From an uncultured Lachnospiraceae bacterium (GTDB taxonomy: Bacteria; Bacillota; Clostridia; Lachnospirales; Lachnospiraceae): a stretch of DNA of 39,540 nt. The stretch covers positions 1-39,540 of the forward strand of contig CAMNCY010000005.1 of NCBI GenBank assembly GCA_946534785.1. Direction: 5' to 3'. Shown here one piece after another: positions 27,754-35,050 of the stretch. A program made the translations under genes and the position numbers. The notes beneath the pieces were generated by a model, which saw only the letters and a program-made list of their open reading frames with translations, ran no database searches and was not told where the DNA came from. Each line of letters opens with the position of its first letter. The stretch's first letter is position 1.

Positions 27754-30420
27754 TTACGGAAGCTCCGCAAGCGCCGTGACCGCGCCTTCCGCATCCACCG
27801 TCACCTCCATGATCTGCATGGGAAGATCCGGCCGGGGAAGTTTTTCCAGCCACTGTTTCACACTCTCACTACCGATGGGATATTCAAGGCAGATGGCGTC
27901 GCCTTTGACCGTATACCAGGGACTTCCGTCCTCCATCTCATCCGTGATCTCCGCTTCCTGAAGCCAGAGCGTTCCGGCTTTCTCATCATAGCGGACGACT
28001 CTTGCGGGGAAGGTCATGCTCTTTGCCAATGCTCCGGGCAGTGCGTTTCCGTAGTAGCGGTGAAGATCGAATTCTGTCACATACCCGTCACTCTTATCCC
28101 GCATCAGAGAGTTCAGTGCACCGTCCCCGTTGTTGATCTGTTCCAGATGCAGGATCGTATCCCCTTCCGTCAGGTAGAACTCCATCAGGTAATCTCCGGC
28201 GCTTCCCTTCATGCCGGTCTTTTTCACAGTCGCCTTATCGACACTGCGAAGGGACAGAAGATCCGGCGAATGCCATTCGTCGGCAAAAAAGCGTTCCAGG
28301 CTGTATTCGAGGGAGATGTTTTCCTCCTCGTCATAGATGATGAAGGTCCCGTCATCGTTGAAGTATACAAGGCGGGTATGCCCGCTTCCTTCCGGATCCC
28401 GGCAGATCCACATGCCGTACATGAATCTGTTGAACTCCTCTTCTGACATAAGAGAGACCTGCTTTGCCGCAACGGGGTATCCCGCCAGTGTCATTTCCGG
28501 CACACCGTCCTCTCCGTCATTGAGATGCATGTAGTTATCCTCTCCGAAGGTATAGGAACCCCACAGTCCGTCTTTGGACGCTGAGATCCGAAGCTCCGGA
28601 TGCCAGGGGAAGGTGACGTTTGCCGTGATATATTCCCCTCTGTTCAGGATCCCGTCGAACAGGACCTCGCCCGGAACGATCCCTGCTTCCTGCATATAGA
28701 CGGTCTCCGCGGTGTTCGGATCGTCCTTGCTTCTTTCCAGCCGCACACGGAGTCCATCCTGGTAGGAAGTGATCTTTGCTTTGTGCTGCTGCGTATCTTC
28801 ATCACTGTTCCTTCTGGAGATTTTCAGGTCTTCGACCGGGTTCTTCATGGATCTTTCCGGCAGGTCGTACTCCAGCCGCAGGAAGGCGTGGCTGTCGATC
28901 CGGGTAATGCCGATGATCTCTCCATCCTTATTCAGGCGAAGACGGGCATAGCATCCGTTCTCCTTCGGAACGGGATAACCATAATAATCCCCGTTCTCCA
29001 GGTCAGACCACTTATAGAAGGCCGCATCTTCCATAAATGCGCGCTTTCCGTCCTCCCATTCCACGTCCTCGGAAATCGGAAGCCGGTACGTCTTTTCCGC
29101 CCTGGGCGTCTGCATTTCATCTGTCCCCAGCTGCTGCCAGAGAAGATCATCCCTGTCCTCCGAGAGCCATACGATGCCTTCGAGCTGTGTTTCATAGTCC
29201 GTCTCCGCCAGCATGATCCCGTCCTCTCCGTTTCCGGGAAGGAAGGAGTATTCCATGCCGAGAAGCGCCCAGCCGTCGTAATACCAGGCCGCATCCACGG
29301 GAGAATTCTCTTCGCAGGCAACAATGCCGAACACGCCGTCCGCCACATATTCCGCCGTCTCATAATTACGGCGGTATCCTGTTTCGGTATCCTTGTCCAG
29401 CGTGAAATCCTCGGCAAGGAGGATCCAGTCTTCCCCGTCATAGATGGACAGATCTCCCTTTTCGTTCAGGGTCCTGTCGCCTTTCAGATATTTTGCCGCT
29501 GCGATATTTCCTTTTTTATCAATATACAGCCGCGGAACGGGCCAGTCGGGATCCCCTGTGCCGCGGATGGCTTTCAGGCTCTCCTCCTTGCCGGCTTCGG
29601 CCGTATAAGCCTCGGCACTGTCCAGATAATTTCCGGCTCCTATCCGGTATTCATGAACGATGCCGATCCTGCCTTCATCTTCCAGGAACTGGCCCGGTGC
29701 ACCCATTCTTCCCCCGTCCTCGTCTTCTATGGTGCCCAGAAGGACGGCTGCCTCTTCCCCGTCAAAGGGTATTTCCCAGTAGGCGTATTCCGGATGCTCA
29801 TTATCATAGCTGACCGTCATCAGGTACAGGGCCCTGTCCGTGATCCCGGTATAGCTGCAGGACTCTTCAAAGCCCAGTTCGCATACTTCTTCACCGTCTT
29901 TGTAGATATGGAATAAGCTCCCCTCCCGGTCGTAAACGATCTCCTCCTCGAGAGCAAGATAGCCCGAAGGAGAAATGCCGCGGATCGTTCCCGCCGCGAT
30001 ATGTTCCGCCTCCCCGGTACCGATCTTATACCGGAAGACCTCCCTGTGGCCGTTCATCCATTCGTTCAGGTACAGGCTGCCGTCCGAATAATACAGTCCG
30101 CCGCAGCCATAGTCGGAAAAGGCCTTCTCCACCTTTTTCGTTTCCGTATCATAGTACATGATATCGGAGGATCCGCCGGCAGCGTTGAAAAGCTCCAGGA
30201 AGGAATTTCCCGAGATCTGCTTCTTAAGTGCCTCCGGACCGTACTTGCGGAAGTACACCCTGCTGCCGGCACGGACGAAATTCCCACCGTTATTCTCGAT
30301 ATCTTCCGCCTCTGTGTAGATCTTTCCGCCGGCCCCCTTTTCCTTTGCCAGAGCCTCTGTCCCCGATGCCGTAAAAAGGAAAAGCAGGATCGCCGAAAGT
30401 ATCAGTATTCTTTTTTTCAT
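27754..30420 (-). CDS. Large secreted protein of unknown function
   Basis: I chose the ATG at 30420 because GGGGGA lies just upstream and the product then begins with a textbook signal peptide (MKKRILILSAILLFLF, cleavage near EALA). The 888-residue product is rich in Asp, Glu, Gly and Tyr. Its first half has recurring short strands such as IMYYDTETKKVEKAF, GGLYYSDGSLYLNEW and VFRYKIGTGEAEHIA. That suggests a beta-propeller of the kind seen in DUF5050-like extracellular proteins. The second half is also beta-rich with no motif I recognise, and there is no cell-wall anchor or membrane tail. It stands alone between convergent repeats and the azl genes. Role unknown; surface binding or sensing is possible. 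Confidence 0.8.
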   Translation of the reverse strand: MKKRILILSAILLFLFTASGTEALAKEKGAGGKIYTEAEDIENNGGNFVRAGSRVYFRKYGPEALKKQISGNSFLELFNAAGGSSDIMYYDTETKKVEKAFSDYGCGGLYYSDGSLYLNEWMNGHREVFRYKIGTGEAEHIAAGTIRGISPSGYLALEEEIVYDREGSLFHIYKDGEEVCELGFEESCSYTGITDRALYLMTVSYDNEHPEYAYWEIPFDGEEAAVLLGTIEDEDGGRMGAPGQFLEDEGRIGIVHEYRIGAGNYLDSAEAYTAEAGKEESLKAIRGTGDPDWPVPRLYIDKKGNIAAAKYLKGDRTLNEKGDLSIYDGEDWILLAEDFTLDKDTETGYRRNYETAEYVADGVFGIVACEENSPVDAAWYYDGWALLGMEYSFLPGNGEDGIMLAETDYETQLEGIVWLSEDRDDLLWQQLGTDEMQTPRAEKTYRLPISEDVEWEDGKRAFMEDAAFYKWSDLENGDYYGYPVPKENGCYARLRLNKDGEIIGITRIDSHAFLRLEYDLPERSMKNPVEDLKISRRNSDEDTQQHKAKITSYQDGLRVRLERSKDDPNTAETVYMQEAGIVPGEVLFDGILNRGEYITANVTFPWHPELRISASKDGLWGSYTFGEDNYMHLNDGEDGVPEMTLAGYPVAAKQVSLMSEEEFNRFMYGMWICRDPEGSGHTRLVYFNDDGTFIIYDEEENISLEYSLERFFADEWHSPDLLSLRSVDKATVKKTGMKGSAGDYLMEFYLTEGDTILHLEQINNGDGALNSLMRDKSDGYVTEFDLHRYYGNALPGALAKSMTFPARVVRYDEKAGTLWLQEAEITDEMEDGSPWYTVKGDAICLEYPIGSESVKQWLEKLPRPDLPMQIMEVTVDAEGAVTALAELP

Positions 30421-30525
30421 GACTTTCCCCCGCATGCCCCGTTTCCGGAGACCTTCATGATTGTGATCCCCGTGCCGGAGCCTTCTGCCGCATTCAGACA
30501 ATAGTATCAATTCTACATACAATTA

Positions 30526-30957: not shown

Positions 30958-31747
30958 ATTCCGGGCCCTCCTCTTTGTTCATTACGGCCTCCTTCCCGGG
31001 TCTGTCTTCATCCGCGGGCTGCGCTTTTCGTGCGGCTGCGTAGGGAACCGATAAAAGGACGGTGATAAAGAGCATGGCCGGGATCAGAAAGCTGCTCTCT
31101 CCGAACAGGACAAGGCACAGGATGCTTGCCAGAAGGCCGGACAGGGCGGGCCGGTGGTCCTTGTTCGTCAGCCACTGCTCCGTGAATACGGTGATGAACA
31201 GGGCCGTCATGGAAAAATCGATCCCCTCGGAATTGAAGGGAAGCGCGCCGGCCATCAATGCGCCGATGACGCTCCCGCTGACCCAGTAGGACTGGTCGAA
31301 GAGGGATACGAGAAAACAGTAAAGCCCCGCATTTTCCGCCGGGATATCCGCATCATCGCAAAGGAGGGAATAGGTCTCGTCCGTCAGGCCGAAGATCAGG
31401 TAGGGCCGGAATTTCCCCATATTTCCGTATTTTCCCACCATGGAGATCCCATAGAAAAGATGCCGCGCATTGACCATCAGTGTCATCAGCGCAGACGTAA
31501 GAACGGAGGCGCCGCCGGCAAGAAGGTCCACCGCCACATACTGCATGGAACCGGCATAGATGAACAGGCTGCAGGCAAAGGTCCAGAGGGGGCCGTAGCC
31601 GTTATGGCTCATCAGGATCCCAAAGCCCATCCCCACGATTTCATAGGCCGCGAAGACGGGAAGCGTCTTTAAAAACGCCTTCATGACGATCTTCGACGGT
31701 TTTTCGTTTCTTGTCTCTGTATCCACAGGTTTCCTTTCACCGGTCAT
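30950..31747 (-). CDS. azlC: AzlC-family amino-acid exporter large subunit
   Basis: The 265-residue membrane protein shows AzlC signatures: LPVFAAYEIVGMGFGILM, SLFIYAGSMQYVAVDLL and MTLMVNARHLFYGISM. The family exports branched-chain amino acids and other hydrophobic or toxic amino acids; in B. subtilis AzlCD gives azaleucine resistance. The start overlaps the stop of the racemase gene by 4 bp (ATGA), implying coupled synthesis. Coupling of an exporter to a racemase and an importer is unusual and suggests that the exported species is the racemase product. The N-terminal 20 residues are hydrophilic and the C-terminus is acidic/basic (about 25 residues). Confidence 0.92.
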   Translation of the reverse strand: MTGERKPVDTETRNEKPSKIVMKAFLKTLPVFAAYEIVGMGFGILMSHNGYGPLWTFACSLFIYAGSMQYVAVDLLAGGASVLTSALMTLMVNARHLFYGISMVGKYGNMGKFRPYLIFGLTDETYSLLCDDADIPAENAGLYCFLVSLFDQSYWVSGSVIGALMAGALPFNSEGIDFSMTALFITVFTEQWLTNKDHRPALSGLLASILCLVLFGESSFLIPAMLFITVLLSVPYAAARKAQPADEDRPGKEAVMNKEEGPEYE

Positions 31748-32568
31748 AATTCGATCTGCACCGAGGTCTTTTTCAGGATCCTTACGCTTCCGCCAAGACG
31801 AATGTTTCCGTCAGGATCCGCAAAGACAGAAAGGCTGCCACCCGGCTGCCGGAGCGAGATCTCAACGGATCTGTTATCCCGTTTTGCCAGAAAGGCGCCC
31901 ACGGCGCTGGTGCCGCTCGCACAGGAATTCTCCCAGAAAAGCGTATCGGCGGCCGGCACATACACAAGAGGTGTCAGCCTCCCGTCTTCCTCGTCCAGGA
32001 ACATAAGGCCCGCGGCGTCGGCATTCAGTTGCCGGCACCACTTCGGGGCAAGTTCTTCTGCTCTTTCCTTCCATGAAGGATCCGTGAGGATGACATGGGC
32101 GATCCCGTCAAAGAAAACGACGGGAAAGGGTCCGCCCTCCGGGAAGGCGACCTCCCGGATGCTGCAGGATCCGGGCATCTGCACGATGGCTTTCCGGGCA
32201 ACCTGATCCGCGCTTTTATCTGCGTCCTGATCCGCACCGGGGACTTCCCCCGTGATTTCCACACGTACCGGCTCCTTTGCGCCGGAGCAGCGTACCAGGT
32301 ACGATGCACGGGGCTGTCCGTCTTTCACGTCTTTCATGGCTGCGATCACGCCCGCGCTCATGGAGGCGTTTCCGCAGAACTCTCCCCCGGCCATGTCCAG
32401 TGCGATATCACAGCCTTCCTTTTCGGAAAGAAAGCCCACCTGCTCGCAGCCGGGCTCGGCCTCCATCAGGAGGGAGGCCGTACGGGGCCGGTCTTTCGGC
32501 AGGATGGGCGTATTCACAAGGATCGTTATATTTCCGGTCGGATCTGCAATGTAATAGTCGATTCTCAT
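31744..32568 (-). CDS. DapF/CntK-type two-cysteine amino-acid racemase
   Basis: The 274-residue product has the two-domain diaminopimelate-epimerase fold signature of two catalytic cysteines at mirror positions: C65 in [13 protein letters not shown] and C216 in [13 protein letters not shown]. Both are intact. Overall divergence from DapF (no CGNGxRC, no ACGTGAC) points instead to the cofactor-independent racemase group that includes the histidine racemase CntK. It would invert the alpha carbon of a free amino acid in the cytosol without PLP. An insert at about residues 108-125 is Asp/Ala/Lys-rich. The start overlaps the ATPase stop by 4 bp and its stop overlaps azlC by 4 bp, so it is locked between importer and exporter genes. 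The substrate cannot be told from sequence. Confidence 0.83.
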
Positions 32569-33323
32569 CTCTGGTAGTTGCGCAGGAACTGCTTCGTCCG
32601 CTCCTGCTGCGGATCTCCGAACACGGCCTCCGGATGGCCCTGCTCCACGATAACGCCTTTATCCATGAAGATAACGCGGTTGCTGACCGCCCGGGCAAAG
32701 GGCATTTCATGGGTCACGACGACCATGGTCATCTTCTCTTCCGCAAGCTGGCGGATGACCTTCAGGACTTCACCCGTAAGTTCGGGGTCCAGGGCACTGG
32801 TCGGCTCATCGAAGAACAGGATCGAAGGCTTCAGCGCAAGGGCACGCGCGATCGCGACTCTTTGCTGCTGGCCGCCGGAGAGCTGGCAGGGATACGCATC
32901 CGCCCGGTTCTCCAGATCCATTTTCCGGAGAAGCTCCATGGCTTCTTCCCGCACTTCTTCCTTGCTCCGCTTCTGCACATGGATCGGAGCATCCATGACG
33001 TTCTTCAGCACGGAATAATGCGGAAACAGATTGAACTGCTGGAATACCAGACCGAAATACCGCTTGATCTCGTTCAGTTCTCTGTGGTGCACATATTCGG
33101 CGGTGCCGTTCCCGTCTGTTGTGACCGCTGCTTTGTCCATATACCGGATCTCGCCGGCGTCGATCCTCTCAAGGAAGGTCGCGCAGCGAAGGAGCGTGCT
33201 TTTGCCGGAGCCGCTGGGCCCGATGATGCTCACGACCTCGCCGGCGTCAACATGGAGGCTGATATCCTTCAGGACTTCCAGTTCGCCGAAGGACTTCTGA
33301 ATTCCGCTCATCTGTAAGATCAC
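32565..33323 (-). CDS. Polar amino-acid ABC transporter ATPase (GlnQ/HisP type)
   Basis: The 252-residue ATPase has Walker [11 protein letters not shown]-loop FQQFNLFPH, signature [15 protein letters not shown], Walker [13 protein letters not shown] and the switch histidine in VVVTHEM. The [10 protein letters not shown] and [13 protein letters not shown] segments place it in the polar amino-acid uptake group. The start is GTG at 33323 with GGAGG nine bases upstream; an ATG four codons later is a weaker choice. It lies 15 bp after the permease gene and overlaps the racemase gene by 4 bp. Confidence 0.95.
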
Positions 33324-33338
33324 TTTCCTTCACCTCCG

Positions 33339-33986
33339 TCAGTTATAATAATTCATTGCCTTTTCGATCCGTTCCATCACAAAGGCAACGACATAGTTCG
33401 CGATAAAGTAGAAGATGCCCGCGATGATAAAGGGCATGAAGGACGTCTGGGACGCCGCGATCTGTTTTGCCAGAGAGAACATCTCATTATACGCCAGCGT
33501 AAAGGCAAGGGAAGTATCCTTGACGAGCGTGATGATCTCGTTGGTGATGGAGGGCAGGATCGTCTTGATGACCTGCGGCAGGATGATCTTGAAAAAGGTC
33601 TGCACCTTGCTGTATCCCAGTACCTCCGCCGCTTCGTACTGTCCCTTGGGGATCGCTTCGATACCGCCGCGGTAGATCTCGGCAAAATACGCCGCATAGT
33701 TCATGGAAAAGCCGAGAATGATGGCGGTAAAACGGTATCCGCGGATCGACCAGCCGAAAATGTAATAGGGCCCAAAGTACCACATCAGAAGCTGCAGCAT
33801 CAGGGGCGTTCCGCGCATGATGGCGATATAGATCTTGGTGATCCACTGCACGACGGCAATGCGGGACCTGCGGAGGAACATGACGCCCATACCCAGAGGA
33901 AGGGAAAACAGAAGCGTCAGGAAAAAGATAAGACACGAGCGGAGCATGCCCGCGCCCATCGAGGTTAGCATGGTGGAAAGACTCAT
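33339..33986 (-). CDS. Polar amino-acid ABC transporter permease (HisM/GlnP type)
   Basis: The 215-residue protein has about five membrane helices. The ATPase-coupling EAA loop is visible as GQYEAAEVLGYSKVQTFFKIILPQ. The MRGTPLMLQLLMWYFG segment is the usual polar amino-acid permease N-terminal landmark, and YAAYFAEIYRGGIEAIPKGQ precedes the loop. A single permease implies a homodimer. AAGGAG lies eight bases before the ATG. A terminator-like hairpin separates it from the upstream binding-protein gene. Confidence 0.95.
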   Translation of the reverse strand: MSLSTMLTSMGAGMLRSCLIFFLTLLFSLPLGMGVMFLRRSRIAVVQWITKIYIAIMRGTPLMLQLLMWYFGPYYIFGWSIRGYRFTAIILGFSMNYAAYFAEIYRGGIEAIPKGQYEAAEVLGYSKVQTFFKIILPQVIKTILPSITNEIITLVKDTSLAFTLAYNEMFSLAKQIAASQTSFMPFIIAGIFYFIANYVVAFVMERIEKAMNYYN

Positions 33987-34020: not shown

Positions 34021-34052
34021 AAAAAGTTCGGGCCGATCGCGACCGGCCCGAA
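34021..34052 (-). terminator. Intrinsic terminator between binding-protein and permease genes
   Basis: TTCGGGCCG (34027-34035) pairs with CGGCCCGAA (34044-34052) over an 8-nt loop. On the minus strand five T (34021-34025) follow after one C. Partial read-through would give more binding protein than permease and ATPase. Confidence 0.75.
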
Positions 34053-34117: not shown

Positions 34118-35050
34118 TTACTTGTTTTCTCCCGCGATCAGGAAGGAACCTGCCGTCATATCGATGGCGATCGCATCGATCGCACCGGCCTTCAGATCGT
34201 TGAAGGCAATGGTATAGGTCTCATAGACCCTAAGCTCGGAGAAAGTGGCGGCAAGGTCCGCCTGGGAATCCTCCAGCATGTCATAGGCGGAAGTGGCGGT
34301 CTGGACGCCGACGATCTTTCCTTCCAGGTCTGCCAGAGTCTTGATGCCGGAATCCGCGGCGACAAGGATGCCCTGCGTGTTGTTGGAATAGGTGAGGCCC
34401 CATGTGTAATCGTCCTCACGGCCTTCCTTGGTGAAACCGGACCAGATGCAGTCGCAGCTTCCCGCATTCAGTTCCATATCCTTGGCGTCCCAGTTGAAGG
34501 GAACCGCTTCGTAGCCCCAGCCGAGATATTCGCAGACTGCCTGGCAGAGCTCTACGTCAAAGCCGCCGACCGTGCCGTCATCCTGCAGATAGGAATACGG
34601 AGGATAATCCAGATCAAAGCCATGCTTGAAAGTATAGGAGCTGTCGCCCGAGCCTTCTTCGGGAAGGGAAGCGGTATCGATATCCGCTGCATCCAGGCAG
34701 AGGTAATCTTTGATATCCGGATATTTCTCGCCGATCTCCGCATAGGTGCCGTTTGCGACCAGCGCCTTGACTGCGCCGCTTACCTGCTCTGCCAGCTCAT
34801 CATCTCCCTTGCGGAAGCCGATGGCGTAGGACTCGACGCCGAGATCCTCATCCAGGAATACATAAGCACCTGTACTCTCCTCTGCGGGAGCCTCCTCAGC
34901 TGCTTCTTCTTTTGCTTCTTCCGCAGGCTCTGCGGCTTCTTCCTTAGCCTCCGGAGCAGGTGCACCCTGTGTCGGTGCCGCGGAACCGCAGCCGGCAATG
35001 GCAGCTGCCGTAAGTACCGCTGTCAGTAACAGCGCAAGATTCTTTTTCAT
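34118..35050 (-). CDS. Amino-acid substrate-binding lipoprotein, apparently circularly permuted
   Basis: This is the 310-residue binding protein of the adjacent amino-acid importer. A lipoprotein signal ends IAGC (C21), followed by an Ala/Glu/Pro-rich linker (about 22-60). Residues 62-118 (YVFLDEDLGVESYAIGF, KGDDELAEQVSGAVKAL, NGTYAEIGEKY) are the piece that normally ends family-3 binding proteins. Only then comes the usual beginning (FDLDYPPYSYL near 145, GGFDVELCQAVCEYLGW), the carboxylate-binding arginine near R211 (FTKEGREDDYTWGL) and LEGKIVGVQTATSAYDML. The protein stops at 310 after IDAIAIDMTAGSFLIAGENK, exactly where the moved piece should follow. All parts are present once, so a working but permuted fold is expected. 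GGAGG lies nine bases before the ATG; a promoter is at 35123. Confidence 0.9.
   Translation of the reverse strand: MKKNLALLLTAVLTAAAIAGCGSAAPTQGAPAPEAKEEAAEPAEEAKEEAAEEAPAEESTGAYVFLDEDLGVESYAIGFRKGDDELAEQVSGAVKALVANGTYAEIGEKYPDIKDYLCLDAADIDTASLPEEGSGDSSYTFKHGFDLDYPPYSYLQDDGTVGGFDVELCQAVCEYLGWGYEAVPFNWDAKDMELNAGSCDCIWSGFTKEGREDDYTWGLTYSNNTQGILVAADSGIKTLADLEGKIVGVQTATSAYDMLEDSQADLAATFSELRVYETYTIAFNDLKAGAIDAIAIDMTAGSFLIAGENK

Follow-up and report, generated by a model that had tools for sequence, protein, structure and literature searches.

A circularly permuted family-3 amino-acid-binding protein gene in Lachnospiraceae, probably encoding a working lipoprotein receptor of an importer

Introduction

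Amino-acid-binding proteins of family 3, such as GlnH and HisJ, carry a characteristic closing segment at their C-terminal end. The gene at 34118–35050 on the minus strand of contig CAMNCY010000005.1, from an uncultured Lachnospiraceae bacterium (assembly GCA_946534785.1), encodes a predicted lipoprotein of this family in which the closing segment stands first. The first 39,540 nucleotides of the contig were analyzed and are referred to as the window. This locus raises the question of whether the gene is a natural circular permutation and whether its product can still serve an amino-acid importer. Our analysis indicates that this family-3 (type II) lipoprotein gene was very probably circularly permuted once and that it most likely encodes a working importer receptor of ordinary fold.

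As a rule, natural circular permutations come to light in comparisons of distant relatives, in which the event is inseparable from later change. Here, permuted and unpermuted forms are approximately 74% identical in their main part and occupy the same operon in different species of one genus. The locus offers a clean natural case for studying the rewiring of a working protein, with the usual tail placed first and the rearranged gene replacing the normal one in related species.

Order of the segments in the binding protein

The whole protein matches Pfam SBP_bac_3 (PF00497) with 91.3 bits against a cut-off of 26.4, and residues 143–259 correspond to profile positions 3–98. The end of the profile (97–129) precedes this match within the gene, at window positions 34721–34975 in a genome search in which this part alone scores 23.9 bits, below the cut-off. 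Since profile positions 97–129 precede positions 3–98 in the gene and the order is thus not collinear, the protein is classed as a permuted SBP_bac_3 variant and not as an ordinary member. An annotation pipeline whose profile expects one order reports such a gene as two broken pieces. The same exchange was obtained with phmmer against 4OHN of Streptococcus pneumoniae, in which residues 137–307 match 16–189 and residues 66–110 match 199–243, although the latter match carries little weight by itself (i-Evalue 0.72). In L075, an unpermuted relative, one continuous match covers 4OHN residues 21–243. Used as a separate query, residues 62–118 match residues 178–220 of the 226 of GlnH (E 3.8e-7), and residues 139–310 correspond to the start and middle of family-3 binding proteins. 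The stop codon directly follows FLIAGENK, where the closing segment would ordinarily continue. The initial annotation had placed the closing segment at residues 62–118, ahead of the usual opening, and the end of the protein at FLIAGENK; the matches to 4OHN, GlnH and SBP_bac_3 confirm this layout, and the separate segment search that it proposed returned an order swapped relative to other binding proteins.

The window protein has the conserved arginine and aspartate of 4OHN, GlnH and HisJ and is predicted to share their family-3 type II fold, but it is about 28–32% identical to them and, unlike them, does not carry the C-terminal segment last. Arg211 and Asp297, which do not vary across 35 permuted rows, align with the conserved R and D of 4OHN; we take this pair to be the residues that bind the carboxylate and amino group of the amino acid.

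Segments 62–118 (34697–34867) and 139–310 (34121–34636) occur once each in the window, in that order and within one open frame. A second copy of either segment was found neither in the protein nor in the window, in which the next-best matches have E of at least 1.9. This single copy bears on an alternative in which residues 62–118 form an additional domain, with the first lobe completed by another chain or the trap working without closing helices. Such an arrangement, named in the initial annotation as the finding that would overturn it, gained no support, as the segment is single and nothing replaces it. It could draw on the joiner between the old C-terminus and the old N-terminus, which at 21 residues is long enough for a swap between chains, and on the circumstance that three-dimensional closure of the trap is a prediction. 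Nevertheless, the closing segment is as conserved as the rest of the protein, with invariant columns throughout 65–119, and the secondary-structure elements of the permuted protein pair one to one with those of an unpermuted sister. We therefore regard an extra domain as highly improbable.

Distribution and conservation of the permuted form

Scanning genome contigs by similarity yielded 43 loci with a relative. The closing segment comes first in 36 of them (L038–L073) and last in 7 (L074–L080), so the survey of relatives suggested by the initial annotation returned the permuted order repeatedly. Within the window's genus, 6 of 62 genomes (counting that of the window) carry the permuted gene and 8 carry an unpermuted one, 71–76% identical; none of the 62 carries both forms at E ≤ 1e-20. 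The segment order in these genus genomes was verified on fetched DNA. Two of 150 genomes in the family sample (the window's and G081) carry the permuted form. Among 28 further loci fetched in this sample (L010–L037), a subset of matches to which further ones could be added, 27 are canonical and L030 lacks a closing-segment match. Surveys at the level of order and phylum, which covered matches at E ≤ 1e-60 with at most five candidates scored per genome, found the permuted form in 2 of 392 genomes (the window's and G357, which comes from another family) and in 1 of 398 (the window's own), respectively.

Most of the relatives' records are metagenome-assembled, which might suggest an artefact of assembly or binning. 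However, the permuted order recurs in loci from many projects, including L058, whose record is titled Lachnospiraceae bacterium FE2018 and carries no metagenome-assembled genome (MAG) label, and also in the other-family genome G357. Furthermore, the joiner is 21 residues long in 37 of 37 permuted rows, and the window's own has the same length; in this count L058 repeats L009, and the canonical row L026 escaped the pattern used. On the basis of the recurrent order across projects and the constant joiner, an assembly artefact was rejected, and we give it next to no chance.

An unpermuted sister operon (L010, L075, L074 and L090–L097) has the same permease and ATPase and a binding protein of the same family, with 73–76% main-part identity for most loci. 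Unlike the permuted loci, it shows the ordinary segment order and has no 21-residue joiner. Comparison of 37 permuted with 16 unpermuted rows, from which L073, L077, L079 and distant canonical rows were left out, revealed nine nearly fixed differences besides order and joiner, at positions 74, 140, 209, 218, 227, 229, 258, 300 and 305. Four of these lie in the long strands 63–80 and 215–231 of the predicted model and two in the last helix, beside the new C-terminus. With so few other differences between close pairs, the effects of permutation on folding, closure, anchoring and docking are testable in matched pairs.

Phylogeny and origin of the permutation

For phylogenetic analysis, both protein parts were set in the ordinary order and the new joining peptide was removed, giving 80 rows. 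L058 (identical to L009), L060 (5' cut), L030 (no closing-segment match) and L105 were left out, as were L081–L089, whose genomes are the same as those of L090–L102 or were already included, and the identical rows L097 and L099–L102. In the resulting tree, all 38 permuted rows group together as a single clade (100/99) that lies inside the unpermuted rows; its closest neighbors are L010 and L075 (96/96).

Tandem duplication followed by trimming is the usual route to circular permutation and offers a plausible origin for the present gene. The extended tails of the sister proteins (LCLKPEGQE in L010, LCLKPSSEQ in L075) resemble the start of the permuted joiner, for example, LCLTPEGIDE in L042. 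This likeness hints that the joiner begins with the old C-terminal tail, although the match is too short for proof. An old tail read into a second copy of the gene would give such a joiner; a cut-and-paste event, in which the 3' part of the gene moved to a place just behind the tether, would leave the same trace. Cut and paste could also account for two negative observations, namely that no remnant of a signal peptide is visible in the 21-residue joiner and that two copies of the closing segment, as expected of a duplication intermediate, were found in 0 of 119 loci. Given the usual route and the resemblance of the joiner to the sister tails, we nonetheless consider cut and paste rather unlikely, and duplication with trimming remains our preferred origin.

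Predicted structure, anchoring and strength of the evidence

In the AlphaFold2 model of the permuted protein, the secondary-structure elements are those expected and follow the permuted arrangement; the highest-ranking fold matches belong to the type II amino-acid-binding proteins. No solved structure with the same order was found among the best 60 of 93 PDB sequences that matched the permuted profile; in all 60, the best stretch begins at profile position 106 or later. The 50 top-ranked Foldseek rows span 158–193 alignment columns, and 5JKQ, discussed below, is the one exception that deserves attention. We infer that the permuted trap closes in three dimensions as its relatives do. Lipid anchoring would take place through Cys21, as suggested by the lipobox-like motif. 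At least 90% of the 35 aligned permuted rows have this cysteine; in 34 permuted rows with the cysteine, the tether leading to the core is 6–61 residues long. Judging from the anatomy of the protein, the anchor should now sit on the second lobe near the hinge instead of on the first lobe. One further locus, L043 (2419–3246), encodes a permuted protein that lacks the lipobox cysteine found in the others and may be secreted or otherwise anchored.

The permuted gene is under purifying selection, with ratios of nonsynonymous to synonymous divergence (dN/dS) of 0.043–0.153 in the complete list of comparisons of the window gene with 40 permuted rows, four of them duplicates; these values are rough because synonymous sites are near saturation (proportion of synonymous differences, pS, 0.49–0.72). 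This saturation is one of the points that weigh against a single permutation yielding a functional trap. Another is the middling confidence of the permuted model, with a predicted local distance difference test (pLDDT) score of 73.9, a predicted template modeling (pTM) score of 0.64 and residues 192–212 below a pLDDT of 50, which also lowers the model's Z. In addition, structures were compared by sequential aligners only, and residues 62–118 fall outside the three-dimensional superposition. Finally, the permease tree splits the permuted loci and requires three changes, with L064, L066 and L067 falling among unpermuted loci. A single permuted clade is not rejected by the permease data (approximately unbiased test, p-AU 0.238), and the failure of this tree to repeat the permuted clade makes an exchange of genes between operons possible.

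The circular permutation of a GlnH/HisJ-type lipoprotein, as originally claimed for this gene, is supported by sequence matches, relatives, the binding-protein tree and predicted secondary structure. The permutation would have taken place in an ancestral member of this gut Clostridia group. Its break falls after the final helix of the middle part, ahead of the strand leading back to the first lobe, and the old ends would have been sealed by the 21-residue peptide. Most likely, the protein folds into an ordinary two-lobed trap and passes its amino acid to the neighboring permease and ATPase; its most likely role is that of a putative lipoprotein receptor of an amino-acid importer.

Relation to known permuted binding proteins

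A natural circular permutation has been reported in TpMglB-2 (Tp0684) of Treponema pallidum, a lipid-anchored type I binding protein with adjacent ATP-binding cassette (ABC) genes, for which the authors proposed the designation "Type Ic" (PMC4990184). Binding and closure are reported to be kept, and tethering was discussed as a possible reason for the permutation (PMC4990184). The window protein resembles TpMglB-2 in being naturally permuted, predicted to be lipid-anchored and encoded beside ABC genes, and differs from it in fold, as TpMglB-2 is a type I sugar-binding protein in which the first three N-lobe strands moved to the C-terminus (PMC4990184). The family and the top fold matches of the window protein are type II amino-acid-binding, which places it outside Type Ic. 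With only 13% identity to its unpermuted counterpart, TpMglB-2 has no close unpermuted orthologue for comparison (PMC4990184). The window case complements that system, for which tethering was raised as a possible reason for permutation.

Among type II proteins of family 3, only engineered permutations, and no natural one, were described in the open-access literature searched. The initial statement that no natural permutation had been described in this family therefore holds for family 3 within that literature, with the type I case of TpMglB-2 (PMC4990184) and a possible type II precedent to be set beside it. The possible precedent is PfVFT1 of Plasmodium falciparum (5JKQ chain A), a eukaryotic protein (13% identity). 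Unlike the ordinary matches, it aligns over 208 residues of the permuted model, from residue 81 on, an alignment that takes in some of the moved segment. 5JKQ was absent from the 50 top-ranked Foldseek rows and from the best 50 fold-match rows of the unpermuted sister. PfVFT1 might be a candidate for natural permutation in a eukaryotic trap protein.

A kinase fusion carrying the permuted domain

Locus L073 (1–1738) contains a long, cut frame that comprises the end of a Ser/Thr kinase (Pkinase, 35.8 bits against a cut-off of 31.7), followed by a probable membrane-spanning hydrophobic stretch and then by a permuted binding domain, which is held at the membrane through the same new N-terminus. 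This single case comes from the MAG that also carries the permuted L061, where it sits on a short contig. Its branch in the tree is long (1.41), and this, along with the cut contig, calls for caution. A search of the 62 genus genomes with the L073 domain hit 14 of them, always in an open frame no longer than 348 amino acids, which indicates that there is no second kinase fusion in these genomes. A more far-reaching account can also be proposed. A single recent permutation would have shifted the anchor from the first lobe to the second, beside the hinge, and displaced the ordinary gene in the same operon; a Ser/Thr kinase would then have taken up the trap, through the same N-terminus, as its extracellular sensor; and selection would have kept the new tether because it alters closure, docking or signalling with a partner. 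Taken as a whole, we find this account unlikely.

Operon, ligand and neighboring genes

The features of the gene and its neighbors are listed in Table 1. A permease gene like that of the window follows the permuted gene in every one of loci L038–L072, and an ATPase gene is present in 33 of these, the other two ending before it. The unpermuted loci L074–L080 all have permease, ATPase and racemase-like matches, the last on the other strand in L077; the same three occur in L090–L097 except L094, which stops 523 bases past the ATPase gene. Because the arrangement is the same at permuted and unpermuted loci, the permuted gene occupies the place of the ordinary gene in close relatives. Between the receptor and permease genes, the window has a strong terminator-like hairpin, a common arrangement in operons that produce more receptor than transporter.

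Table 1. Features of the permuted binding-protein gene and its operon in the window
Feature	Position	Strand	Basis or remarks
Permuted binding-protein gene, 310 aa	34118..35050	-	Open frame and SBP_bac_3 match
Residues 1–21, predicted signal peptide with lipobox-like IAGC (18–21) and Cys21	34988..35050	-	Read from sequence, predicted by eye
Residues 22–61, Ala/Glu-rich tether, length varying among relatives	34868..34987	-	
Residues 62–118, segment closing ordinary family-3 binding proteins, here first; strand 63–80, helices 84–99 and 102–108	34697..34867	-	
Residues 120–140, joiner from old C-terminus to old N-terminus; 21 residues, GSGD invariant in alignment of 35 permuted rows	34631..34693	-	
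Residues 141–310, ordinary N-terminal and middle parts, including Arg211 and Asp297	34121..34630	-	SBP_bac_3, 4OHN alignment, permuted-row alignment
Terminator-like hairpin between binding-protein and permease genes	34027..34052	-	11 pairs then TTTTT; z -2.66
ABC permease	33339..33986	-	BPD_transp_1; same place in 35/35 permuted loci L038–L072
ABC ATPase, polar amino acid type	32565..33323	-	Profile matches; loci comparison
Histidine-racemase-like gene (HisR/CntK, DapF-type)	31744..32568	-	Sub-cut-off profile matches

Histidine is perhaps the ligand of the permuted protein. 4OHN, which was solved with histidine bound, is its best sequence match and also the best fold match of the unpermuted sister, and a neighboring gene resembles histidine racemases; these likenesses make histidine a fair guess. 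The chances are about evenly balanced that the ligand is a different one and that the racemase-like gene encodes a diaminopimelate epimerase-type enzyme of other specificity. The two racemase models score below their cut-offs (NF052224, 133.6 bits against 400; NF033599, 106.8 against 300), and no Pfam match was found for the gene at 31744–32568. The best sequence matches of the binding protein also include arginine, glutamine and cystine types. Moreover, the permuted locus of G199 (L098) is an exception in showing no racemase-like match in approximately 3.7 kb after the ATPase gene. By comparison, the racemase-like gene is present in 30 of the 35 loci L038–L072, the other five ending too early to tell, which together with the 4OHN likeness speaks for histidine.

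Two minor observations concern the surroundings of the operon. In L042 (6612–6815) and L045 (6603–6815), a weak, binding-protein-like second match to the main part, with 35–38% identity, lies downstream of the operon near the locus end. In the window, positions 27754–30522 encode a 922-residue protein whose Pfam match is sub-threshold only.
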